Below, one piece after another: positions 354 through 26,727 of a stretch of DNA of 26,921 bases. Every line of letters starts with the position of its first letter. Within the stretch, counting starts at the first letter, position 1. This DNA is from a virus. Location: the IMG/VR virus record IMGVR_UViG_3300025536_000013, positions 64,001 to 90,921 of that record. One strand, 5' to 3'. The notes beneath the pieces were generated by a model. That model was given only the letters and a program-made list of their open reading frames with translations. It was not told the DNA's origin and searched no databases. The position numbers were made by a program, and so were the translations under genes.

Positions 354-758
354 ATGTCACCCGGCGCGTCTAAGCGGCTGGTGGACTCAACGAGAGTCGC
401 GGCGTCGGCCGACCCAGTCGTCTGGAGTTCAGGGCCGACCGCCGCCGTCACGAGTGGCCTTGCCAAATCACCCGCACCAGCCAGAGTCTCTTGTACGATG
501 CCGTCGAGGAGGGCGAAGTAGACCATCACGTCGCCGAGCTTCTCGTCCCACGTGGCGAGCGGGTACTGGCGCCCACTCTGCACCATGTCAATGACGGAAG
601 TCAGGTGCTTGGCCACGAAGCCGAGCAGGGCTTGTTCCGGTGTGCACCGAAGCATCGCCGCGGCGGCCTTTGGCATACTCCTTGGCCTTGGCTGTGAGCA
701 CGCTTCGGACCAAGGCCAGGCGACGTTCGAGAATCGCGGCGAAGGCGCTATGCGTCAT
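350..758 (-). pseudogene. Phage alpha-helical protein (MazG/DUF1599-like), frame disrupted
   Basis: The ATG at 758..756 overlaps the helicase stop (ATGA) and opens a frame reading MTHSAFAAILERRLALVRSV, then a TAKAKEYAKG segment, and ends at a stop near 597. From about 676 the neighbouring frame continues as a convincing C-terminal part: AAAAMLRCTPEQALLGF, then KHLTSVIDMV, then WDEKLGDVMVYFALLDGIVQE. Read together they resemble a common small phage protein with the order EYA..DR..NF..AA..L..TPE.AL.GF..KH..S..D....EK.GD...Y..LL. The DR..NF piece is missing at the junction, consistent with a short deletion plus frame change. Alternatively, translation restarts at ATG 676, which has AAGGAG only one base upstream. 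The family name is my recollection; the two-frame structure is seen directly. Confidence 0.5.
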
Positions 759-3190
759 GTCAACCTCAGGTTGAGATCCATCAGGAAGGGTAGCACGGCA
801 AAGTTCTTGCGAGTCGGCACGACAGTCTCGTCGAGGCCGAGTCGGCTAGCGCTCCGCTGCCACCAGGCGAGTTGTTTCTCCGAGACTGTGCCACCAGGCA
901 AGGAGCTGAAGCCCTTGAGGTCGGCGGGCGGATCGCACTGAACCCACTTGCCCCAGTCCCGGGTGCCGTCTTCCTTCTTCTTATGTTTGCGAATCGCCCA
1001 AACAGGGTCCATGGACGGGTGAGCAAGGGCTGCGTAGTCGGTGACATCGAGCCCGTTGACGGAAGACATGCAATAGATGGAGAATGTGAGACCAGAGCGC
1101 GTCTTAGCGGTGCTCGGTTTCAAGCGGCCAATCGACTCGAGGCCGATGACCTTGCCAGATATTGTGCGCTCGGAGAAACCGAACGTCTTCTCGGCTTGGA
1201 CAAGGGAAGAGAAGGGGATGCAACCTTTGAGCACGTGGGCGTGGCGCATCAAATTTCTGCAATTATGCACAATGAGAGATCCAGCCTGAAAGCGATTCCT
1301 AGGACCCGCGTCTAGGATGTCAAAAACTCGTTGTCGGCACGAGTTGTTCGTAATTACCGCCGATATGCCGACGTAAGACGTTTCTGACGCAGCCTCGCGA
1401 AACACAGTACATGTCTGCAATGTCTCTGAGGCACGAACACCGGAGCGATACTCTTGAGGCGAGTTTCTTATATAGTTTGACAACGGCTTGTTCGAGTCTC
1501 TCGTCGAGCATTGCGATACGCTCAGCGTTGAATTTGAGTTTCTTTCTAGACTCGAAGTCTTGGTTCTTGACAAACCGTAGGTTTCCGGGCTCGTATCCTT
1601 TTTTGTTATCAATACGGTCAAGTGTGAGTTTTTTGTCGGCATGCCCCGGGAGGGTCGCAAGATAGGTGATAAATTTTGACCGGTCTTCGATCCATTCCGG
1701 GTGTACGTATCTTCCAAGTCTCTTGGACCTCTGTATTGCCGATCCTGCCTTTCGCCGAAGATGCTCGCATAGTTTGATCGGGAGATCGAGATTCGTTCTC
1801 TGCGTACCATGGGATGCCCCACCTCGGCATGTTCGACACTTGGCATATTCGCCGTTGTCCGTACGTGGTCTGTTAAGAAATCGTTCTGAAACTGATCTTG
1901 CTGTACCGCAGACATTGCATACACACCACCAGCGTTCATTCCAAGACTCGTCTCGTTCGACAACTGCCCAATGGGCAAAAATCTTCCCGGATTCAACGTG
2001 CTCATATCGTCGAGCTGGCATGCTTGTCTCCATCCTTCTGTGGTCAGCACCATGTGGTCCGGCGTCATGCGCACACCGCGCACGTCGATCGTCTTGCGCA
2101 AGCCATTACACACAATACCGCCATGCGAAACCCACTCTTCTCCATCCCAGAGAAGATCGTCGGCAGTAATTTGTTCGACTGATACAAAACCACGGTCAGT
2201 CATAATTGGCGTGCCTTCTGCAAGGCAAGTACACACGACCTCAGGCTTCGTCTCACCATCGTGCACCGGCCGAGTGCATCTTCCGATCATCTGAACCCAG
2301 AGGCGGGGACTCATGCAAGGAGCGCAGTCGACAATTCGCCGAACTGGCAGGTCCACCCCTTCCGAGACCACGCGAACTTGTGCAATGGCGCACTCTCTGC
2401 GCTTGAACCTCTCGAAAATATCCCGTCGCTCGTTTCTCGGCGTGTCTGCAACGACGACTTTGACGCCAGGCACCATCTGGGCAAATAGGTTGCAAAGCTT
2501 GGAACCGGCGAAGCTGAACACGGTGGTGCGGTCCCAGATGCCGTCCGTGAGCCACCGGTCGTTACACGCCTGCGCCAGGCTTCCAAGTCTATCTGCATAA
2601 GCGGAAGTTATGGCGTCGACGACGAACTCGCCATTGGTGACTTCGATGAGATCGTCATCGACGAGTGGCAGCATCTCCCAGGTCGGCATTGAGATGTAAC
2701 CGAGGTGCTCTGCTTCCTCGTAGCTGATCACCTCGATTGACTCGCCCCAGGTGTCTTTGAGCTCGCGAGTGGCGCGCGGGGAGCCGCAGAAGTCGGTGGC
2801 TGTGAAGCCGACTGCAGGGGCGAGTCCAGTCAAGAGGTCGACTTGTTGCCAAGTCTCGGCTCCGGAGTGATGCGCTTCATCGTAGATAATGAACTCAGGA
2901 GGCTGGATCGCGCCGGACACGAGACGGTTGCGCAGGCGGATCGGAGTGCACATGTTGTGCAAGAGCGGATCGCCGGAGAGACCGGCCTTCTCTAGCATTC
3001 CGTCGAGGATCTCCTCGGAGGGAGAGACGATCCAAGTGCCGGGGGCTCGATCTTGGATGTAGCGTTCGACGTAAGACTTGCCGACGCCAGTCGGTGCCTT
3101 GTAGAGTTGTTTCTGGCCGCGCTGTGCCGTGCGGAGGAAGTCAAGGGCGTGGTCGCCGGCGAGGAGTTGAAACGGTCGGAGCGTGTTCAT
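755..3190 (-). CDS. SF2 DEAD/DEAH-type helicase containing an intein
   Basis: This 811-residue precursor is an ATP-dependent superfamily 2 helicase or translocase. Visible helicase motifs are Walker A APTGVGKS (residues 32-39), motif II DEAH (104-107), motif III-like FTATDF (129-134), and motif VI with QMIGRCTRP (300-308). Residues 322-643 are an intein. Removing it joins VVCT to CRNLMRHAHV, giving a 489-residue helicase that fits phage UvsW/SSL2-like enzymes in size. The likely role is in phage DNA replication, recombination or repair. The ATG start at 3190 has only a weak GAG upstream and lies inside the preceding glycosylase gene (about 50 bases of overlap). The C-terminal arm after the helicase core has no domain I recognise. 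Confidence 0.85.
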   Translation of the reverse strand: MNTLRPFQLLAGDHALDFLRTAQRGQKQLYKAPTGVGKSYVERYIQDRAPGTWIVSPSEEILDGMLEKAGLSGDPLLHNMCTPIRLRNRLVSGAIQPPEFIIYDEAHHSGAETWQQVDLLTGLAPAVGFTATDFCGSPRATRELKDTWGESIEVISYEEAEHLGYISMPTWEMLPLVDDDLIEVTNGEFVVDAITSAYADRLGSLAQACNDRWLTDGIWDRTTVFSFAGSKLCNLFAQMVPGVKVVVADTPRNERRDIFERFKRRECAIAQVRVVSEGVDLPVRRIVDCAPCMSPRLWVQMIGRCTRPVHDGETKPEVVCTCLAEGTPIMTDRGFVSVEQITADDLLWDGEEWVSHGGIVCNGLRKTIDVRGVRMTPDHMVLTTEGWRQACQLDDMSTLNPGRFLPIGQLSNETSLGMNAGGVYAMSAVQQDQFQNDFLTDHVRTTANMPSVEHAEVGHPMVRRERISISRSNYASIFGERQDRQYRGPRDLEDTYTRNGSKTGQNLSPILRPSRGMPTKNSHLTVLITKKDTSPETYGLSRTKTSSLERNSNSTLSVSQCSTRDSNKPLSNYIRNSPQEYRSGVRASETLQTCTVFREAASETSYVGISAVITNNSCRQRVFDILDAGPRNRFQAGSLIVHNCRNLMRHAHVLKGCIPFSSLVQAEKTFGFSERTISGKVIGLESIGRLKPSTAKTRSGLTFSIYCMSSVNGLDVTDYAALAHPSMDPVWAIRKHKKKEDGTRDWGKWVQCDPPADLKGFSSLPGGTVSEKQLAWWQRSASRLGLDETVVPTRKNFAVLPFLMDLNLRLT
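1262..2227 (-). other. Intein (322 aa) in the helicase, inserted just after motif VI
   Basis: The first residue is Cys (codon 2227..2225) in CLAEGTPIMTDRGFVSVEQI, a typical block A. Block B is RMTPDHMVLTTEGWRQA, with the TxxH motif. The C-terminal blocks F and G read VFDILDAG, then FQAGSLIVHN followed by Cys, with the terminal Asn codon at 1264..1262 and Cys as the +1 extein residue. All residues expected for class 1 self-splicing (Cys1, TxxH, penultimate His, terminal Asn, Cys+1) are present. The stretch between blocks B and F carries no LAGLIDADG or HNH motif in the intein frame. That interval instead encodes an HNH protein in another frame (separate entry). Splicing itself cannot be shown from sequence. 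Confidence 0.9.
1320..2021 (-). CDS. HNH homing endonuclease nested out of frame inside the intein
   Basis: A second minus-strand frame, shifted relative to the helicase/intein frame, encodes about 233 residues. The N-terminus is a zinc-binding fold, with WWCVCNVCG and YAKCRTCRG supplying paired cysteines, of the type found at the front of many phage HNH proteins. The C-terminal half has HPEWIEDRSKF and then LTLDRIDNKKGYEPGNLRFV, the His/Asn-containing HNH nuclease core of phage HNH/AP2-type endonucleases. I prefer ATG 2021..2019 because GGAG lies six bases upstream; an in-frame ATG at 2033 is the alternative. The gene begins inside intein block B and stops inside block F. It probably makes a DNA cut that spreads the intein. 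Expression from an internal start, rather than frameshifting, is inferred. Confidence 0.8.
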   Translation of the reverse strand: MPARRYEHVESGKIFAHWAVVERDESWNERWWCVCNVCGTARSVSERFLNRPRTDNGEYAKCRTCRGGASHGTQRTNLDLPIKLCEHLRRKAGSAIQRSKRLGRYVHPEWIEDRSKFITYLATLPGHADKKLTLDRIDNKKGYEPGNLRFVKNQDFESRKKLKFNAERIAMLDERLEQAVVKLYKKLASRVSLRCSCLRDIADMYCVSRGCVRNVLRRHIGGNYEQLVPTTSF

Positions 3191-3632
3191 TTTCTATTCT
3201 CGTTGTTCTTATTGACATTTGGCCGTTGGGACTCGGGACAGGCCACACGTACTCGGCTCCAGGATCGTCGGTCCAGCCGTAGCGGCCGTACCAGACGGGG
3301 TCTTTGCGCAATAGCGCAGATCGGTGCGAGGCGTGTATTGGTCCGCCGAACCAGTCAGGGAGCACATAGCCCTGCGGCTCAGGTAACAATTTGGCAAGAC
3401 ACGTGTCGCGGTAGCCTCGCTTGATCCACTCGGCGCAGATGACGAGGCCGTACCACACAAGAGCTGACTCATGGCCCCGCCACATTCGAGTGGCTGGGTG
3501 GTTCACCCAGCCGATGCCGCCTCGCAGGGCGGCGAGAATCTGCAGCGTCTCGACGCGTTGTTTGCCGAGGCGGGCTCGGTCGAGACAGGCGGCGCTAGTA
3601 ACGAAACAAGGGTAGGGAAGGAACGTTTGCAA
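3141..3632 (-). CDS. Pyrimidine dimer DNA glycosylase family protein (MSMEG_6728-like)
   Basis: The protein opens QTFLPYPCFVTSAACLDRAR, then LGKQRVETLQIL, WVNHPATRMWRGHE and EWIKRGYRDT. This pattern is typical of the small family grouped with T4 endonuclease V (Pyr_excise). Members are thought to act on damaged DNA, but this branch is little studied and the T4 activity should not be assumed. The start is set at TTG 3632 because family members begin close to TFLPYP; the frame also stays open upstream to 3767, where sequence no longer looks conserved. No strong ribosome-binding site is seen, so the start is tentative. The C-terminus overlaps the helicase start by 50 bases and ends in a basic tail. 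Confidence 0.7.
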   Translation of the reverse strand: MQTFLPYPCFVTSAACLDRARLGKQRVETLQILAALRGGIGWVNHPATRMWRGHESALVWYGLVICAEWIKRGYRDTCLAKLLPEPQGYVLPDWFGGPIHASHRSALLRKDPVWYGRYGWTDDPGAEYVWPVPSPNGQMSIRTTRIENEHAPTVSTPRRRPRP

Positions 3633-3661
3633 GTGTCGACGTTTCGTCAGGGTACACGTGT

Positions 3662-4024
3662 CTATTGAACATTTGCAGTGGAGCCAGGGCTGGTGGCGCG
3701 TGGCGGCAGCGTGGTGCGCAGCCTGGCTACAAACTCTCGACACAGCGCGAAGGACTTCCACGGACACCAGCCGGTAGTCACGTATGCGAACAGGTGAGCT
3801 TCAGGAATGCCGAGCTCGGCAGCCACTGCCCGTGTGTCGAAATCGGGCTCGTTGAGCGGCGGCATGGAAGCATAGGCTGAGTCGAAGACGGCACGATGCT
3901 TCCGAGGGAAGCGAGGGTGGTCGGCTTCGTACAGGTACACGTAATACTGGGGGACGCCGAGGCGGCCAGCGAGCTCAGGGACTGAGAGTCCAGCGGCTTT
4001 GCGTCGAGACCTAAGTCTATTCAT
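3662..4024 (-). CDS. Helix-turn-helix protein, 120 aa (paralogue 1)
   Basis: Residues 13-35 (LSVPELAGRLGVPQYYVYLYE) form a clear helix-turn-helix of the XRE or homeodomain-like kind, preceded by a basic start (NRLRSRRKAAG). A second, weaker segment (AVAAELGIPEAHLFAYV) could be another DNA-binding helix pair. The neighbouring gene at 4080-4370 carries the related pattern LALALGVPRYYVRWLL, so the two probably arose by duplication. A sigma70-like promoter ends only eight bases before the ATG, so the message may be leaderless. The probable role is regulation of phage transcription; no target site is known. Confidence 0.65.
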   Translation of the reverse strand: MNRLRSRRKAAGLSVPELAGRLGVPQYYVYLYEADHPRFPRKHRAVFDSAYASMPPLNEPDFDTRAVAAELGIPEAHLFAYVTTGWCPWKSFALCREFVARLRTTLPPRATSPGSTANVQ

Positions 4025-9735: not shown

Positions 9736-10986
9736 GTGGGATTCAAGTGGCCGTTGATGCGGAGCAACTTCGCGCGAGAGGACTTCGACGCCGTCTTCAA
9801 CCTGCTCACGAACGAGCCCAACGCCAACCCGGACTGTGACTGGGACGTAGACGTCCGTCTCACCCAGGGCGACCAGGTGCGGGCCTTCGAGCAGGAGTTC
9901 AGCGCGTGGTTGGGAGTCAAGCACTCGATCTTCGTCAACAGCGGCTCCTCGGCCAACCTGCTGACGATGGCGGCTCTGCACGAACGGCACCCCAGATTTA
10001 GCGACAATCGCAAGGTCCTCGTCCCTTGCGTCACCTGGGCCAGCGACATCACGAGCGTGTTGCACGCCGGGTTCGAGCCGGTGTTCGTGGACATCGACCG
10101 CCGCACGCTGGGGATGGGCGGGCTGCAAGTCGCTCGACTGGTGGACGAGAAGAAGCCGGCGGCGGTGTTCGTCACGCACTGCATGGGCTATCCCGGCATG
10201 AGCGTGGCCCTGTGGAACGCGATCAACGACACCAAGACGCCGTACTTCGAGGACTGCTGCGAGGGGCCTGGAGCGGTCATTCCGTGCTATGGGACGGAAG
10301 GCAACCAGTGGAGAAAGGTCGGCACGTTCGGCCTCGCCAGCAACTTCAGCTTCTACTACGCCCACCACATGACCACCGTCGAGGGTGGCATGGTGTGCAC
10401 GGACGACGACGTGTTCGCGGCCATCGTGCGGAGTTTGCGAGGGCATGGGCTGCGGCGGGAGGTGCCGGCGTTCAGGGACTTGCCCAAGCCCGACGACCTC
10501 GAACCTGAGTTCATCTTCGACTACGAGGGCTACAACTGCCGCAGTACCGAGATCAACGCGGTCATCGGCCGCAGCCAGCTCAAGCGGCTGGACGAGGGCA
10601 TCGAGCGGCGTAGGGAGCTGCTGAGCCTGTTCCTGAGCCACATCGACTCCGACCTGTATCAGACGGACTTCGCGGTGGAGGGTTCCAGCCCTTACGCTCT
10701 GACATTGGTGCTCAAGCATGACGATGACGTGCTTCGACATAGAGTACGGAATTGCCTGCACGAGCAAGGCGTGGAAACAAGACGAGGCATCGCTGGAGGA
10801 GGGAATCAACTTAGGCAACCCTACCTCCGCCGACGCTACGGCACCATGTACGCCGAGTTCCCCAACGCCGAGCACGTCCACTGGAACGGCTGGGCCTTGG
10901 GGTTGTGGCCAACACTTGAGCCAGTCGAAGTGAAATGGATTTGTGAGAAGTTGAACGGCCTGAAGTCTGGTAAAATGGTGCCATGA
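9736..10986 (+). CDS. PLP-dependent sugar dehydratase/aminotransferase (DegT fold, His at the Lys site)
   Basis: The 416-residue protein has the DegT/DnrJ/EryC1 fold: VNSGSSANLLTMAAL (residues 68-82) for phosphate binding, VFVDIDRRT, and YFEDCCEG (170-177) for the cofactor-ring acid. The segment SNFSFYYAHHMTTVEGGMV has His210 where aminotransferases carry the Schiff-base Lys. That replacement is the mark of ColD (GDP-4-keto-6-deoxymannose 3-dehydratase) and RfbH/E1-type enzymes, so removal of a sugar hydroxyl is more likely than amination. GTG 9736 is chosen for its GAGGTGCAAC leader and because it begins MGFKWPLM; ATG 9646 in frame would add 30 residues. Its last codons appear to have been replaced during insertion of the HNH gene that follows. 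Confidence 0.8.
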   Translation: MGFKWPLMRSNFAREDFDAVFNLLTNEPNANPDCDWDVDVRLTQGDQVRAFEQEFSAWLGVKHSIFVNSGSSANLLTMAALHERHPRFSDNRKVLVPCVTWASDITSVLHAGFEPVFVDIDRRTLGMGGLQVARLVDEKKPAAVFVTHCMGYPGMSVALWNAINDTKTPYFEDCCEGPGAVIPCYGTEGNQWRKVGTFGLASNFSFYYAHHMTTVEGGMVCTDDDVFAAIVRSLRGHGLRREVPAFRDLPKPDDLEPEFIFDYEGYNCRSTEINAVIGRSQLKRLDEGIERRRELLSLFLSHIDSDLYQTDFAVEGSSPYALTLVLKHDDDVLRHRVRNCLHEQGVETRRGIAGGGNQLRQPYLRRRYGTMYAEFPNAEHVHWNGWALGLWPTLEPVEVKWICEKLNGLKSGKMVP

Positions 10987-11753
10987 AAACCTGCACCAAA
11001 TGCGACGAGGCAAAGCCGCTGGATGAGTTCTACGTCCAGCAAAGGTCGCACGGACCGTACCGCGTTTCCTACTGCAAGACGTGCGCCTGCGTCTGGGCAA
11101 GGGCGACCAGCGCGAGGCGCTCCAAAGACAGCGCCTACATGGCAAAGGAAGCTGCCAAGAAAAGAGACCTAGGCAAAGAGTTGCGGGTCGAGATGGTCCA
11201 AGCTTACGGAGGGGCTTGCCACTGCTGCGGTGAAGACGGGCATCTGTTCCTGACCTTGGACCACATCGAGTGCAGTGGTAATCATGTTAGGTCCGGATCG
11301 GGTGGGCATCGTGGACCGGGCGGCATCCATCTGTACAACCGGCTCAAGAAGCAAGGGTGGCCGACCGATAACCTTCGCTTGGCCTGTTGGAATTGTAATT
11401 GCGGACGCCAGTACAACGCAGGTATCTGTCCTCACGACGAAGTCATCGAACCCGTTCGCTACTGGGACAAGTGGCGGCGGGTGTTGAAAGCGGAGACGCT
11501 CGACGTTTACGGGGGCTCACGATGCTCTTGTTGTGGCGAGTCCAACCTGATGCTTTTGACGCTGGACCACCTTGAAGGCGTCGGCGAGAAGAACAGGACC
11601 AGCAACGTCTACAGCTGGCTGCGAGCACGAGGATGGCCAGACAAGGACAAGCTGAGGGTGCTGTGCTACAACTGCAACTCCGGTCGGCATCTGAATGGCG
11701 GAGAATGCCCGCACGTTATGCAATCGGGCTCTGGCCCAGCCTTGAACCGGTAG
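10983..11753 (+). CDS. Tandem-domain HNH endonuclease with zinc ribbon
   Basis: The 256-residue protein starts with a zinc ribbon (CTKCDEAKPLDEF ... CKTC, residues 4-34) seen in many phage HNH proteins. It then has two copies of an HNH-like unit: residues 74-151 (CHCCG, LTLDHIE, LRLACWNCN, CPH) and 176-244 (CSCCG, LTLDHLE, LRVLCYNCN, CPH). The Cys pairs bind zinc and LDH supplies the catalytic His. ATG 10983 overlaps the dehydratase stop. The last residues after CPH (VMQSGSGPALNR) read through the stranded dehydratase C-terminus in a different frame, so the original protein probably ended near residue 244. It is likely a freestanding homing endonuclease. Confidence 0.8.
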   Translation: MKTCTKCDEAKPLDEFYVQQRSHGPYRVSYCKTCACVWARATSARRSKDSAYMAKEAAKKRDLGKELRVEMVQAYGGACHCCGEDGHLFLTLDHIECSGNHVRSGSGGHRGPGGIHLYNRLKKQGWPTDNLRLACWNCNCGRQYNAGICPHDEVIEPVRYWDKWRRVLKAETLDVYGGSRCSCCGESNLMLLTLDHLEGVGEKNRTSNVYSWLRARGWPDKDKLRVLCYNCNSGRHLNGGECPHVMQSGSGPALNR

Positions 11754-11797: not shown

Positions 11798-11958
11798 CGC
11801 AACCTTGGTGGTACTACGCATCGATGGCCGTAGGCTTGGCGGTTCTGGCATCGCTCATCCCCGGCGCGATCTGGTTGGGCGAGCGACATGCCGACCAAGA
11901 ATGGAAAGAGCAACGCAGACGTGAGAAGCGGCGGGAACGGAAGAGGGCACGGAAGTGA
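11794..11958 (+). CDS. Single-pass membrane microprotein, 54 aa
   Basis: The ATG at 11794 overlaps the stop of the dehydratase remnant. A hydrophobic segment (YYASMAVGLAVLASLIPGAI, about residues 7-27) is followed by a highly charged, Arg/Lys/Glu-rich tail (DQEWKEQRRREKRRERKRAR), giving an N-out/C-in membrane anchor by the positive-inside rule. No family is recognised. The GTG start of the next gene overlaps its stop, so it is coupled to the sugar kinase gene. It may anchor or recruit a partner at the membrane; that is a guess. Confidence 0.6.
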   Translation: MTQPWWYYASMAVGLAVLASLIPGAIWLGERHADQEWKEQRRREKRRERKRARK

Positions 11959-12812
11959 TCACCGCCAAGGCACCGCTCCGCATCAGCTTCGCCGGTGGCG
12001 GGTCCGATTTGCCTGAGTGGTACCAACGCCACGGAGGCTGCGTCCTCTCAGCCACGATCAAGCGCTACGCCACGGTCACGGCGACGGTCAACGGCTCGCT
12101 CAAGATCGAGGTGAAGAGCGACTGCCCGCCCGGCTCCGGACTCGGCGGTAGCAGTGCGGTGTGCGTGGCGATGATCGCGGCCACGGGCAAGCGGTTCGGC
12201 GTTGAGCACAGTTTGAAGGAGATCGCAGAGGCGGCTATTGCCCTGGAGCGTGGCTACTTGCGGGTGGCTGGTGGGGAGCAGGACCATTGGAGTGCCGTGG
12301 TCGGTGGGTTGAACCTGTTCGAGTGGGGGCACGAACGTCTCAAGCAGACAACGAGGATGCAGCCGCCGCCCGACCTGAGCAAGTGGTTGCATTTGGTCTT
12401 CACCGGCAAAGCCCGCACGGACGCCGGCATCCAGCAGCGGCTGACGGAGCGGTGCAAGACGGAGGACGTGGCGGCACTGAACCGCACGATGCTGGTGGCC
12501 AGGGAGATGGCCAAGGCGTTGCAGGACGGCGACCTCAACTGGTTCGGCAGCCTGCTCCACGACGCTTGGGAGTACAAGAAGGAGACAAGCCCCGGCTGCT
12601 CGACGGAGCGGGCTGACAAGATGTACGAAGTGGCCAGAGAGCAAGGAGCCGTAGGCGGTAAGCTGTGTGGCGCAGGCGGTGGCGGATATCTGCTGCTGTG
12701 TGTCCCGCCGGAAAGAGTCTTGCGAGTGATGCACAGGTTCTCTGCGGCCTTCGCGACCAAGCTGGAACCGGTGGAGTTCGAGCCCAACGGCGTGACGGTG
12801 GAGGCAACGTGA
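11955..12812 (+). CDS. hddA: GHMP sugar kinase, D-glycero-D-manno-heptose 7-phosphate kinase-like
   Basis: The 285-residue protein opens AKAPLRISFAGGGSDLPEWY, the N-terminus typical of HddA-type kinases. It has the GHMP ATP-binding loop PPGSGLGGSSAV (58-69) and the C-terminal KLCGAGGGGYLLL motif. HddA phosphorylates heptose 7-phosphate at C1 on the way to GDP-heptose; fucokinase-like activity is an alternative within the family. The protein is shorter than typical members, mainly before the ATP loop. GTG 11955 overlaps the preceding stop. The next gene is the matching nucleotidyltransferase, as in bacterial hdd clusters, which supports the assignment. Confidence 0.75.
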   Translation: MITAKAPLRISFAGGGSDLPEWYQRHGGCVLSATIKRYATVTATVNGSLKIEVKSDCPPGSGLGGSSAVCVAMIAATGKRFGVEHSLKEIAEAAIALERGYLRVAGGEQDHWSAVVGGLNLFEWGHERLKQTTRMQPPPDLSKWLHLVFTGKARTDAGIQQRLTERCKTEDVAALNRTMLVAREMAKALQDGDLNWFGSLLHDAWEYKKETSPGCSTERADKMYEVAREQGAVGGKLCGAGGGGYLLLCVPPERVLRVMHRFSAAFATKLEPVEFEPNGVTVEAT

Positions 12813-17853: not shown

Positions 17854-18135
17854 ATGCCCGAGCGCCGTTACAACTGCTGCACCATCGAGGGCGGCATCCA
17901 GCATCTGGTGAGGTTGTCCGAGGAGCAGATCCTCGCCATCAAGGTGCACTTCGAGGCGGAGTTGAGCCTCAAGCCGCGAGACCGCCGCGAGCGGCTGTTC
18001 GACAGCATCGTGGCACAGATGCTCAAGCACCTGGCCCACTACCGCGAGGCTGAGGCGGCGCAGCAGATCGAGGAGCGGGCGGTGCGGCGTCGGGAAGGCA
18101 AGGTTCGCAGCAGGCAACGACGGAAGGCATCATGA
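17854..18135 (+). CDS. Hypothetical protein, 93 aa
   Basis: The start ATG 17854 has a strong AAAGGAG eight bases upstream. The protein is helical and charged in its second half (IVAQMLKHLAHYREAEAAQQ, then a strongly basic tail RREGKVRSRQRRK). No family is recognised. Its stop overlaps the ATG of the first glycosyltransferase gene. Confidence 0.6.
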   Translation: MPERRYNCCTIEGGIQHLVRLSEEQILAIKVHFEAELSLKPRDRRERLFDSIVAQMLKHLAHYREAEAAQQIEERAVRRREGKVRSRQRRKAS

Positions 18136-19007
18136 AGAAGCAACTGCTGATCCTGCTCCTGGAGGCGGACATCCTGGAGGGCGTCCTGTCCTGGCCGATC
18201 CGCGAGCTGGGCGCCAAGGTGCTCTTCTACCGGACCGACGCCCAGATCAAACTCTACGTCGAGGCGCACCGGCCCGACGTGGTGCTGCTGGACGAGCCCT
18301 GCGGCGGGCCGAGCAAGCCGCTGCCGGAGACCCTGCACTGGCTCAAGCAGCAGTGCCGGTCGGTCAGAGTGGTGTGGGACGCGACGGATACGCCTTGGCA
18401 CGGCTACCTGGAGAGTTATGCGAGACAAGACACCTTCAGTCTCACCGTTGCCGCCGATGGCGCGGTGGATTGGCCTCATCGAGCTGGTACAGACGTATCG
18501 CTACCAACACCTGTTGACCCGCAGTGGTACGAGTCCAGAGGAACGGTTGAGAGAACTGTTCGCCTCGGCTTCTCCGGCTCCATCGGCACCCAGGGACCAC
18601 GGCAACGAGTCATCGGCGACCTCCAGAAGGACGGACTCCTGACGGTGCGGCAGCGCGGCGAGGTGCAGTTCCCGTACTCCGCCAACGCCGACTTCTACAA
18701 GACCTGCCAGGCGGTGCTGAACGTCGCCCACACCAGCAGCGGCCGGCTCCAGTGCAAGGCAAGGGCCATCGAGGCTGCCCTGGCGGGTTGCCTGCTGTTC
18801 GAGACGCACGGCAGTCCGCTGCAGAATTGGCTGACGCCCGGCCTTGATTACATTGACTACACTGAGCCGGAGCAGGTACGGGCGATGCTTGGCCGGCCGG
18901 ACATCATGCAGCGAGCGCAGGAGTACGGTGAGCGGGCACGGGCGAAGGTGCTGGGCTACGGCTTTCCGAGGATGTTCTGGTCGGCCGTGATGGGCGAACA
19001 ACTATGA
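18132..19007 (+). CDS. GT-B-like glycosyltransferase (CgeB-type), paralogue 1
   Basis: The 291-residue protein belongs to a group of four related genes in this window. It starts KKQLLILLLEADILEGVLSW, with SWPIRELGA typical of the group, then VWDATDTPWHGYL, VDPQWY, and LGFSGSIG at the start of the second Rossmann-like domain. The C-terminal block CKARAIEAALAGCLLFETHG then SPLQNWL is the nucleotide-sugar-site pattern of CgeB/YkvP-like transferases. Donor and acceptor are unknown; a product of the neighbouring sugar genes is the likely donor. ATG 18132 overlaps the preceding stop. Confidence 0.7.
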   Translation: MKKQLLILLLEADILEGVLSWPIRELGAKVLFYRTDAQIKLYVEAHRPDVVLLDEPCGGPSKPLPETLHWLKQQCRSVRVVWDATDTPWHGYLESYARQDTFSLTVAADGAVDWPHRAGTDVSLPTPVDPQWYESRGTVERTVRLGFSGSIGTQGPRQRVIGDLQKDGLLTVRQRGEVQFPYSANADFYKTCQAVLNVAHTSSGRLQCKARAIEAALAGCLLFETHGSPLQNWLTPGLDYIDYTEPEQVRAMLGRPDIMQRAQEYGERARAKVLGYGFPRMFWSAVMGEQL

Positions 19008-22698: not shown

Positions 22699-22881
22699 AT
22701 GAGCAGGTCTTACACGCTCGCTAGCGGGACTGACCTACAGAGGCGGCTTGGCTACATCAACGAGCGGGCGAAGGAACTGGAGAAGAAGAGTGAGGAAGGC
22801 TCAGACGTGAACCAACTTGCGTACATGGTCGCTTATCTGTCGGCTATCCTACACAAGCACCTATCGACTAAGGAAGTGTAG
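22699..22881 (+). CDS. Small helical hypothetical protein, 60 aa
   Basis: ATG 22699 is preceded by TAGGAGAAACAACG, one of the clearest copies of the leader found across the island. The protein is short and charged (LQRRLGYINERAKELEKKSE, then VAYLSAILHKHL) and may form a two-helix bundle. No family is recognised. It ends one base before ATG 22883 of the transketolase gene. Confidence 0.6.
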   Translation: MSRSYTLASGTDLQRRLGYINERAKELEKKSEEGSDVNQLAYMVAYLSAILHKHLSTKEV

Positions 22882-22882
22882 G

Positions 22883-23704
22883 ATGACCAACCAAGACCTG
22901 CAACGCAAGGCCGACTGGGCACGCCGTACCGTGCTGGAGATGGCGGTCAAGGCCGACAGCGGCCACGTCACCACGGCGTTCTCCCTCGCCGAGATCTTCG
23001 CCGTGCTGTACAACGGCGTGCTCCGCTTCGACCCGAAGAATCCGCAGTGGGAGGGCCGCGACCGATTCATCCTCAGCGAGGGGCAAGCTGGTATCGGCCT
23101 CTACCCGTTCCTCGCCGACGCCGGCTTCTTCGACAAGAGCCTGCTGGACAACTTCACCGGCGTCGGCAGCACGATGGGCGTCCACAGCGAACCCGCCACT
23201 CCCGGCGTGGAGGTGCTCACCGGTTCCCTTGGTTACGGTCTGTCCCTCGGCTGCGGCATGGCCCACGCTGCCAAGCTGGCCGGCAAGAGCTGGCGGACGC
23301 TGGTGATCGTCGGCGACGGCGAGCTGACGGAGGGGAGCTGCGACGAGGCGCTGCGGGTGATCGCTGGCTTGCACCTGACCAACTTCTGGTTCCTGGTCAA
23401 CCGCAATGGCCACAGCACCATCGGCCATAACGACGGGCGGGGCACGACACAGAGAGACCTGCCGCTTGAGGACTTGGCCATGAAATTCGAGAGCTACGGG
23501 TTCGGTGTGCGGACGGTGAACGGGCACGACCTGAACCAATTGCTCGCGGCGTTCTGCGGGATGCGCTCGGAAGGTGTGCGGCCCGTCGCCATCATCGCCA
23601 ACACCGAGAAGGGCCACGGCTGCCACCTGGCCAACGAGCGGGGCTGGCACTACCGGGTGCCGAAGGGTGACGATCTGGAGCGTATACGGAGGGAGTTACC
23701 ATGA
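22883..23704 (+). CDS. Transketolase, N-terminal (TPP diphosphate-binding) subunit
   Basis: The 273-residue protein contains MAVKADSGHVTTAFSLAEIF (His28 of the TPP pocket), RDRFILSEGQAG, and GSLGYGLSLGCGMAHAAKL. VGDGELTEGSCDEALRVI then LVNRNGHSTI gives the GDG...N TPP motif. This is the N-terminal half of a two-gene transketolase as found in archaea and many bacteria. The partner is at 23909-24850, with one small gene between them. It transfers two-carbon units; sedoheptulose 7-phosphate, a heptose precursor, is a possible product. Dihydroxyacetone- or sugar-branching variants are alternatives. Confidence 0.85.
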   Translation: MTNQDLQRKADWARRTVLEMAVKADSGHVTTAFSLAEIFAVLYNGVLRFDPKNPQWEGRDRFILSEGQAGIGLYPFLADAGFFDKSLLDNFTGVGSTMGVHSEPATPGVEVLTGSLGYGLSLGCGMAHAAKLAGKSWRTLVIVGDGELTEGSCDEALRVIAGLHLTNFWFLVNRNGHSTIGHNDGRGTTQRDLPLEDLAMKFESYGFGVRTVNGHDLNQLLAAFCGMRSEGVRPVAIIANTEKGHGCHLANERGWHYRVPKGDDLERIRRELP

Positions 23705-23904
23705 AGTACGTCGGGAAGAGCAGCACTGGAGGCAGCGTCTATAAAGCAGAACGCAGCAACCTCCACCAGATCGCCTTCGACTTTGGCAAGGACGATGACC
23801 GTGCAGCATTCATGAAGTGGTTAGATGAGTTGCAAGGCGGGAACGTGAAGCCGGACCTGCGACGAGAACTGCAGGAAGCCTATTACCGAGGTCGGAAGGG
23901 TTAG
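23701..23904 (+). CDS. Small protein with MKYVGKSxTGGxVYK start, copy 1 (67 aa)
   Basis: The ATG overlaps the stop of the transketolase N-half gene (ATGA). The first 15 residues, MKYVGKSSTGGSVYK, match those of the gene at 24847, which overlaps the stop of the transketolase C-half gene in the same way. The remainder (FGKDDDRAAFMKWLDELQGG, then REAYYRGRK-like end) differs between the two. The shared start might be a small beta-hairpin tag; no function is known. Confidence 0.6.
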   Translation: MKYVGKSSTGGSVYKAERSNLHQIAFDFGKDDDRAAFMKWLDELQGGNVKPDLRRELQEAYYRGRKG

Positions 23905-23908
23905 CAAC

Positions 23909-24850
23909 ATGAGCGACACACCACGAATCCTCGGCATGCGGGACGAGTACTTCAACGCCCTCTACCCGCACTTCCAGGCCGACAAGCGGTGCATCTTCCT
24001 GAGTGCCGACAACGGTGCTCCGACGATGGACCAGTTCAGCGAGTTGCCCGGCCAGTTCCAGCAGGTGGGCATCGCCGAGCAGCACATGGTCTCGCACGCC
24101 GCGGGCCTGGCACTGGAAGGGCATCGGGTCATCGTCTACAGCATCGCCGCGTTCACCATGCGGTGCTTCGAGGCGATCAAGGTCAACATGTGTGCCCAGC
24201 GGCACAACGGCTTGCCGATCACCTACGTCGGCATCGGACCGGGGTTCGCCTACAGCATCATGGGGCCGACGCACCACAGCCTGGGAGTGATCGCCGCCCT
24301 CCGCACCGTGCCGAACCTGACCGTGTGGCACCCGGCCGACAACATCACGGCACGGGCGTTGGCCAACCGCTTCCCCACGCAGACCGGGCCGGAGGTGATC
24401 CTGTTCGACAGGACTGACATCAAGGAGCAGTTGCATCCTCCACAAGTACCAATCGACGGCGGCATCGGCTGGGTAAAGGGAAACACCGGTTGCGAGGTAC
24501 TGATCTTGGCCTCTGGAGTGACGACGCATCAAGCCAAGAAAGTCGCTGATTTGCTGTCCCCGATGCCGGTGGGTGTGGTGGACGTGTTCCGGCACAAGCC
24601 GTTGAATTTGTTCCTGCCGGACATGGCCAAAGGCTGCAAGCTGGTCGTCACCTACGAAGAGGACTGGCTCGCCGGCGGACTCGGCAGCGCGGTGGCCGAG
24701 GCGTTCGCCGACAACCGCATCACGACCCCACTCCTCCGCATCGGTGTGCCGGACGAGTTCGCTTACGAGATGGGTGGCCGCGAGGTGTTGTGGAAGAAGT
24801 TCAACCTGCTGCCCGAACAGGTGGCGGCACGAATCAGGGAGGCGTTATGA
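23909..24850 (+). CDS. Transketolase, C-terminal (pyrimidine-binding) subunit
   Basis: The 313-residue protein has FQQVGIAEQHMVSHAAGLAL, where Glu57 is the catalytic Glu that activates thiamine. VIVYSIAAFTMRCFEAI and GPTHHSLGVIAALR follow, then the transketolase C-terminal domain (EVLILASGVTTHQAKKVADL, VVTYEEDWLAGGLGSAVAEA). It completes the enzyme with the 22883 gene. ATG 23909 follows GGGTTAGCAAC. Its stop overlaps the second MKYVGK gene. DXP-synthase-like C-halves look similar, but the pair is closest to split transketolase. Confidence 0.85.
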   Translation: MSDTPRILGMRDEYFNALYPHFQADKRCIFLSADNGAPTMDQFSELPGQFQQVGIAEQHMVSHAAGLALEGHRVIVYSIAAFTMRCFEAIKVNMCAQRHNGLPITYVGIGPGFAYSIMGPTHHSLGVIAALRTVPNLTVWHPADNITARALANRFPTQTGPEVILFDRTDIKEQLHPPQVPIDGGIGWVKGNTGCEVLILASGVTTHQAKKVADLLSPMPVGVVDVFRHKPLNLFLPDMAKGCKLVVTYEEDWLAGGLGSAVAEAFADNRITTPLLRIGVPDEFAYEMGGREVLWKKFNLLPEQVAARIREAL

Positions 24851-25980: not shown

Positions 25981-26727
25981 ATGAAGTTCAGTTTTCATTG
26001 GAAAGGCTCCGCGTTCAAATGCCACGGAACCGGCGTCTATCTGATCATCAATCAGGTTAGCGGCAAGGTCTACGTCGGGTCGGCGGCACAGTCGATCTAC
26101 AAGCGTTGCCACGACCATCGCGGGGCGTTGCGATACGACCGGCACAAGAACATCCACCTGAGTCGCTCTTGGCGGAAGCACGGGGAAGCTGCGTTTATCT
26201 TCGTGGTCGCGGAAGAGTGCGATCCGGAGCTATGCGTCGAGCGAGAACAGCACTGGATGGATCGGTTGCAACGAAAGGGTTACACGCTCTTCAATCGGGT
26301 GTTCAAGGCGGGGAGCGTGCTGGGGCTTCGGCATTCAGACGAGACTAAGGAAGTTCTCCGGCAGAAATCGTTGGAACAGTTTGAAGATCCGAAGTACCGT
26401 GAGATGGTTCGTGAGTTTCATACCGGCCGCAAACACTCGGAAGAAACTAAGAGGAAGATGAGCGAAGCCCACAAGGCCAGGTATCTTGCGAACCCCGAGA
26501 CGTTCCAACGGTGGATTGCTGCTGGTAGGGAGCGGTCTCTTTTGGTGAGACGCAGCAAGCCCCGATCTTCATCGGCTAATGCTAAAACGAGCAAAAGTCT
26601 GCAGGCATTCCATAACAATCCGGAAAACCGTCAGCGGCGTCTTGAGTGGTTGAGACGGGGGCATTTAACCAGGAAAGCTAGGAATTGGGTCGAGCGTGTT
26701 TGGTTCGTGGGAGGGCAAAACCCATGA
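25981..26727 (+). CDS. GIY-YIG homing endonuclease with NUMOD3 motifs
   Basis: The 248-residue protein has GTGVYLIINQVSGKVYVGSA (GVY at 18-20, YVG at 31-33), a conserved Arg42 after it, and CVEREQHWMDRLQ with the metal-binding Glu, so the GIY-YIG nuclease core is complete. Two NUMOD3 DNA-binding repeats follow (GLRHSDETKEVLRQKS and GRKHSEETKRKMSEAHKA), then a basic helical tail. This is the build of freestanding phage homing endonucleases. ATG 25981 follows TAGGGGAAGCAACG, the leader type used by ordinary genes of this island. The stop overlaps the ATG of the next gene. Confidence 0.85.
   Translation: MKFSFHWKGSAFKCHGTGVYLIINQVSGKVYVGSAAQSIYKRCHDHRGALRYDRHKNIHLSRSWRKHGEAAFIFVVAEECDPELCVEREQHWMDRLQRKGYTLFNRVFKAGSVLGLRHSDETKEVLRQKSLEQFEDPKYREMVREFHTGRKHSEETKRKMSEAHKARYLANPETFQRWIAAGRERSLLVRRSKPRSSSANAKTSKSLQAFHNNPENRQRRLEWLRRGHLTRKARNWVERVWFVGGQNP

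Follow-up and report, generated by a model that had tools for sequence, protein, structure and literature searches.

An HNH-family endonuclease gene nested out of frame within a viral helicase intein: a probable dual-frame homing intein

We analysed a stretch of viral DNA of 26,921 nucleotides (nt), positions 64,001 to 90,921 of IMG/VR record IMGVR_UViG_3300025536_000013 (hereafter the window), in which a helicase gene is interrupted by an intein that holds an HNH-family endonuclease gene in a different reading frame. All features of this element lie on the minus strand. The helicase precursor is encoded by an open reading frame (ORF) of 811 amino acids (755..3190), which comprises the N-extein, intein and C-extein, is open throughout and matched Pfam Helicase_C (1.7e-7) and ResIII (1.1e-5). 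The N-extein (2228..3190, 321 amino acids) ends in ...KPEVVCT directly after the helicase motif QMIGRCTRP, and the C-extein (758..1261) starts with Cys+1 (TGC, 1259-1261) followed by RNLMRHAHV. Between them, the helicase frame encodes an intein of 322 amino acids (1262..2227) running from Cys1 to the terminal His-Asn (...LIVHN), recognised by its splice blocks, AlphaFold2 model and Hint fold. The nested ORF encodes 233 amino acids from the ATG at 2021 to a TGA at 1320-1322 (1320..2021). It is in frame +2 (equivalent to -1) relative to the helicase, and the 702 nt that it shares with the intein frame lie wholly inside the intein. An earlier note, made from the sequence alone, had described a complete intein at 1262-2227 with about 700 bases open in two frames, and both statements held.

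Block B of the intein (TPDH) was located at 2054..2065, block F (FDILDAGPRNRF) at 1289..1324, with the stop codon of the nested ORF at its start, and block G (LIVHN) at 1262..1276. Blocks A, B, F and G lined up with those of 21 other inteins; the invariance of the peptide LWDGEEWV in that alignment is partly a search artefact, as the peptide had served as a search pattern, and it was not used as evidence. Every intein feature tested for was found in the window, including a host frame without stop, Cys1, TxxH, block F, His-Asn and Cys+1. The AlphaFold2 model of the intein frame gave predicted local distance difference test (pLDDT) values of 94-98 for residues 1-70, 90-95 for the last 22 residues and 33-45 for the middle, which is therefore predicted to be disordered between the two splicing halves. 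The top Foldseek matches of this model were the DnaX, DnaB and RecA mini-inteins (E 2e-4 to 1e-3). Pfam matches of the host frame to Hint/Intein_splicing were weak, and Pfam found no endonuclease in the intein middle, as the earlier note had also maintained for the stretch between blocks B and F. The window element lacks what defines a canonical homing intein, namely an endonuclease domain in the host frame between these two blocks.

The nested protein (MPARRYEHVESG..., about 27 kDa) was assigned to the HNH family by PHROG, profile and AlphaFold2 results. A Shine-Dalgarno (SD)-like GGAG lies at 2028..2031 with a 6-nt spacer to the ATG at 2021, as the earlier note had recorded, and an alternative in-frame ATG at 2033 would give 237 amino acids. 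The zinc-ribbon part (1827..1919) has four cysteines (CxxC...CxxC) that were invariant in a 21-member alignment, and the HNH-like core DRIDNKKGYEPGNLRFVKNQDFESR (1548..1619) has conserved D, R, Y, P, N and F in invariant or near-invariant columns of the same alignment. The window protein matched the HNH endonuclease families PHROG 374 (3.5e-11) and PHROG 3377 (7.9e-9), and PHROG HNH matches were also obtained for all nested proteins examined from its two classes of relatives defined below (21/21 of class 1, 9/9 of class 2). Pfam did not recognise an HNH signature in the window ORF. AlphaFold2 predicted a folded core with a pLDDT of about 94; the model had no match among PDB structures at E<0.001, and a PDB sequence search with the protein gave no useful match. 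In BFVD, the model matched phage HNH-type proteins, the best being a 247-amino-acid protein of Salmonella phage LPSE1, equal in length to the nested ORF of Jerseyvirus.

Viral contigs searched with the window precursor yielded 56 loci, most with a long other-frame ORF inside the intein. Searches seeded with nested proteins were sorted by separate N-intein, C-intein and HNH profiles, and the best 80 loci of each search were examined. Nested arrangements were found at 216 places among these loci, 139 with the nested frame at offset 2 (class 1) and 77 at offset 1 (class 2). No in-frame intein-HNH fusion occurred among the loci sorted by profile; rarer and more distant in-frame relatives are conceivable, since the sorting covered the best 80 loci per search. 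Freestanding HNH relatives without an intein numbered 29, all of class 2, and the remaining loci were truncated or interrupted. Clustering at 90% identity left 83 class 1 and 63 class 2 loci (146 in total, a few being fragments of one broken ORF). The intein frame was free of stops in all 146, and the frame offset was constant within each class (+2 in class 1, +1 in class 2). The splicing domain of the window was nearer to class 2 by tree path, with too few columns to place it, and its HNH protein was class 1-like.

These counts bear on the possibility, raised in the earlier note as the finding that would undo its reading, that compensating one-base errors at blocks B and F had disguised an ordinary in-frame intein-HNH fusion. 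An assembly or sequencing error of this kind would give exactly such a picture in one record. However, independent metagenomes and numerous isolate genomes supplied 146 non-redundant loci with the same layout and a constant offset per class, no in-frame version was found, and the codon-position signatures described below indicate a long-standing frame switch. The error is in effect ruled out.

Nearly all of the 216 nested places lay in phage polA: host genes of representative loci were family A DNA polymerases with several insertion points, which makes the helicase of the window an unusual host. The polA of the same viral genome, outside the window, also held a nested out-of-frame intein (L002, G000:C1:53235-54212), and one further polA (L042) held two nested class 2 inteins (amino acids 346-605 and 783-1081). 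Among isolates, the nested layout was present in the Jerseyvirus phages SETP3, Ent1, AG11, SP-101, VSe103, S10 and Ijeoma, in Dhillonvirus SO-1 and AV129, Kagunavirus KMB36, Pseudomonas MR14 and Vibrio 97.13, and, in the other frame, in APSE-2, Caulobacter RLK and Streptococcus Javan107. It is carried by about 140 Salmonella phages with sequenced genomes, SETP3 and Ent1 among them, and the nested endonuclease is mostly absent from their annotation. Some records catch part of the layout: orf42 of SS3e is annotated as HNH, the Ent1 record names an intein "encoding splicing domains" only, and the SO-1 record assigns gp39, the nested ORF (L079:2578-3336), to a "type I self-splicing intron". In SS3e, unlike other Jerseyviruses, the polymerase frame is broken around the intein, with the N- and C-intein parts in different ORFs, possibly through a sequence error. 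At two other loci (L061 and L024) the nested HNH ORF was present and the intein frame stopped shortly after block B, with the C-intein following in the same frame in L061; these are either broken or fractured derivatives or assembly errors.

A self-splicing group I intron with an HNH ORF, in which the host frame was open by accident, was considered in view of the SO-1 annotation and of the many HNH ORFs in phage introns. It has next to no probability: no Rfam match was found in the window or in seven representative loci, SO-1 included, and the host frame was open in every clustered nested locus and encoded intein blocks with a Hint fold.

Openness of the two frames was compared with chance by shuffling synonymous codons with the protein of one frame held fixed and scoring the other frame for stops. 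With the HNH protein of the window fixed, the intein frame was open in 1/2000 shuffles (mean 4.9 stops), and with the intein-frame protein fixed, the nested frame was open in 0/2000 (mean 8.4 stops). Most values were near zero in 16 further representatives (17 with the window); the weakest results, all for the intein frame, were 11% in the GC-rich L073, 4.6% in L009 and 1.9% in L072. Because openness exceeded the synonymous-shuffle expectation, both frames must be held open. That only the intein of the window is active and its nested ORF is a non-functional remnant is unlikely, if the least improbable of the alternatives. Broken nested ORFs (L012) and mini-inteins do occur in the family, and the alignment showed the window HNH protein to be divergent and gapped at the YGGRGI region. 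The window ORF is nevertheless intact, has the zinc cysteines and core residues, and scored 5.5e-25 against a class 1 nested-ORF profile made without the window; the intein frame of the window is also open despite the mean of 4.9 stops expected.

Change in the two frames was compared among homologues, as the earlier note had suggested. In six groups of relatives, codon position 3 of the host frame took most of the differences in the exteins, in nt 0-195 of the intein and in its last 90 nt, whereas from about nt 195 to the last 90 nt they fell at codon position 3 of the nested frame, corresponding to host position 2 at offset 2 and to host position 1 at offset 1. The signature switched in groups of both offsets. 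Amino acid identity in the middle columns of class 1 was 52% in the nested frame versus 27% in the intein frame, the nested frame being higher in 2628/2628 pairs; for blocks A/B the order was reversed, with the intein frame more identical in 2627/2628 pairs. The sequence comparisons show the nested protein to be selected as a protein and the intein blocks to be selected in the other frame. The HNH frame was kept in related elements; its absence there was the second finding that the earlier note had named as decisive against it.

Sites with an SD-like sequence and a start codon recurred at fixed intein positions, namely nt 92 and 98 in class 1, nt 202, 187 and 145 in class 2, and nt 206 in the window. 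SD plus ATG in the nested frame was found at 52/78 class 1 loci (synonymous-shuffle mean 27, maximum 35) and 39/62 class 2 loci (shuffle mean 16, maximum 19), against 4 and 2 loci, respectively, in the third frame; these counts are supportive rather than independent because the loci share ancestry. At loci with a WVC motif, the Val codon was GTA, which forms the ATG, in 23/24 (background 79/235), and the sole exception (GTC) was the mini-intein L025, in which the nested gene has been lost. The stop was similarly placed in eight loci (L010, L019, L020, L021, L027, L028, L056 and L058), where a TAA inside the catalytic His-Asn codons (CA[TAA]Y) ends the nested ORF at the intein length minus 4 nt.

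The endonuclease could alternatively be made without independent initiation, by programmed ribosomal frameshifting that yields an N-intein-HNH fusion. The +2 offset corresponds to a -1 shift, and an X XXY YYZ heptamer occurred in the region at 17/83 class 1 and 6/63 class 2 loci. None of these slippery heptamers was conserved in position among the 83 class 1 and 63 class 2 loci, class 2 would require a +1 shift, and the SD and start sites recurred above shuffle counts. We consider frameshifting improbable. Separate translation of the nested ORF by internal initiation is preferred, since SD and start sites exceed those in shuffles and no slippery heptamer is conserved, and it fits the suggestion of the earlier note that the endonuclease is made independently of splicing.

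Several states of the element were found in the family: full elements, elements with a broken nested ORF (L012), partial ones (L035, L063, L054) and mini-inteins without a nested ORF (L025, L055, L069, L082), with the host frame intact in all. The mini-inteins and broken nested ORFs fit a homing cycle. At the polA position of the Jerseyvirus type, 460 phage records matched most of the joined empty site, and intein carriers matched it in two halves. The p-distance between Jerseyvirus and Dhillonvirus was 0.17 for the intein and 0.35 for the exteins, and between Jerseyvirus and Kagunavirus the intein differed by 4% and the exteins by 14-23%. An intein closer than its exteins between genera is as expected of recent transfer. 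Patchy distribution and transfer between lineages were thus found in relatives rather than in the window. When viral contigs were searched with the spliced helicase, no relative turned up, and hence no empty helicase site.

Taken together, the window element is very probably a dual-frame homing intein with a separately translated endonuclease. The host frame would encode a Hint splicing domain (blocks A/B and F/G) around an in-frame middle of about 200 residues that is unconstrained, probably disordered, and need only lack stops. The shifted frame of the same DNA would encode a zinc-ribbon HNH-family homing endonuclease whose start and stop lie inside the coding sequence of the splicing domain. 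The precursor would be translated and spliced to an intact helicase and a free intein, and ribosomes would additionally initiate at the internal ATG 2021 to make the endonuclease of about 27 kDa. This enzyme would cut intein-free target alleles, and repair would copy the whole element with both frames.

Some observations weigh against this reading. The nested protein retains the conserved Asn of the HNH signature and has Asp-Arg in place of the usual Asp-His, and the name "HNH" thus denotes family membership and is no proof of catalysis; to this extent the endonuclease described in the earlier note has a non-canonical signature. The collections searched contained no close relative of the window element, and two-frame selection on it is for that reason inferred from homologues. 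An SD-like site for the nested ORF was missing in 14/83 class 1 and 8/63 class 2 loci, and the start-site counts carry the dependence mentioned above. Splicing, internal initiation, DNA cleavage and homing are themselves deduced from sequence.

The layout is, on the sequence evidence, neither an assembly error nor a passing intermediate, but old and widespread. The earlier note had offered an intermediate in the invasion of an intein by a freestanding HNH gene as one reading, and as stated this misfits, because the layout is stable in highly diverged elements and the frame is fixed within each class. An origin of the nested gene from a freestanding HNH gene is plausible, since the class 2 relatives include freestanding genes. 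With reservations, we lean towards a wider view, in which such elements form an uncatalogued major class of inteins, frequent in phage polA, that combine splicing and homing in overlapping frames. This class would have at least two frame arrangements (+2 and +1), an endonuclease start, and in many elements a stop (TAA in CAT-AAY), within essential splicing-domain codons, and separate expression of the endonuclease. If this is true, these signals would lock the endonuclease gene to the splicing domain. Teaching and searches treat an intein as a single polypeptide whose endonuclease is in frame, a rule that many elements here break. The element is also a clean natural case of long overlapping genes, in which the codon-position switch shows the frame served by each stretch. 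It raises the questions of how the dose of a homing endonuclease becomes independent of splicing, by what route an insert comes to be open in two frames, and how one gene can have its start and stop codons bound to the catalytic residues of another.

Other genes were noted in the window. A pyrimidine dimer DNA glycosylase (3141-3767, minus; Pyr_excise, 9.5e-22) lies immediately upstream of the helicase. On the plus strand, a transketolase is split over two adjoining ORFs, with the N-terminal half in one and the C-terminal half in the other (22817-24850), and a homing-type endonuclease of the GIY-YIG/NUMOD3 kind lies at 25981-26727. A cysteine-rich ORF (10983-11753, plus; CTKCDEAKP...YCKTC) is similar to zinc-finger HNH proteins and had no Pfam match. 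Near the transketolase lie a GHMP kinase (11955-12812) and also a glycosyltransferase-like ORF (18132-19007), so that this virus has sugar metabolism genes.

Canonical bifunctional inteins, such as PI-SceI, carry a LAGLIDADG or HNH endonuclease domain in frame. The dCTP deaminase intein of cyanophage CL131 is an example (PMC6293099). The window element resembles them in having a Hint domain with an endonuclease inserted between blocks B and F, and in its presumed homing logic, and differs in that the endonuclease is in the other frame with its own start and stop and the in-frame middle forms no domain. Frame continuity has also been used diagnostically, its absence having served to rule inteins out in the Felix O1 paper (PMC3185647).

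The earlier note knew of no described intein with a separately translated, out-of-frame endonuclease. That statement stands in part: out-of-frame HNH genes without an intein have been published as the ShiLan domain and Pacc40, insertions in mycobacteriophage methylases (Arsenault, Gosselin, Gogarten 2025, PMC11855218), and the term "putative intein-encoded" has been applied to an HNH ORF lying out of frame in brucellaphage terL (PMC4422536); splicing motifs are lacking or undocumented in these cases. Like ShiLan and Pacc40, the window element hides a zinc-finger HNH gene out of frame in an insertion that leaves the host frame open (PMC11855218). On this precedent, the window could hold a ShiLan-like insertion kept unspliced in the host protein, its intein ends decayed. 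This is very unlikely, as none of Cys1, TxxH, block F, His-Asn and Cys+1 is missing, selection acts on the splicing domain in the host frame, a Hint fold is predicted for it, and the insertion interrupts the helicase directly after a conserved helicase motif. ShiLan itself has none of the intein motifs and is considered to remain in the protein, whereas a complete splicing domain is encoded by the host frame here. Since ShiLan reportedly finishes with TAAC and has Asn as its final residue, it may be connected with a decayed intein of the nested type with TAA in its His-Asn codons. In brucellaphage terL, too, a phage gene contains an HNH ORF in a different frame, and unlike the window element this case has no documented splicing motifs (PMC4422536). 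In the ShiLan paper (PMC11855218), a preprint on actinobacteriophage inteins of "non-canonical architecture" (Gosselin, Arsenault, Gogarten, bioRxiv 2025, 10.1101/2025.01.02.630785) is cited for overlapping reading frames; the preprint may describe overlapping-frame inteins, and priority is therefore uncertain.

The preferred reading, a dual-frame intein with a separately translated endonuclease, can be set beside one further arrangement. Dassa and colleagues reportedly described, in 2009, fractured genes with split inteins and freestanding endonucleases. Both arrangements would have the endonuclease translated apart from the splicing halves; the fractured genes have a broken host gene, whereas the host frame here is one continuous frame that overlaps the endonuclease.

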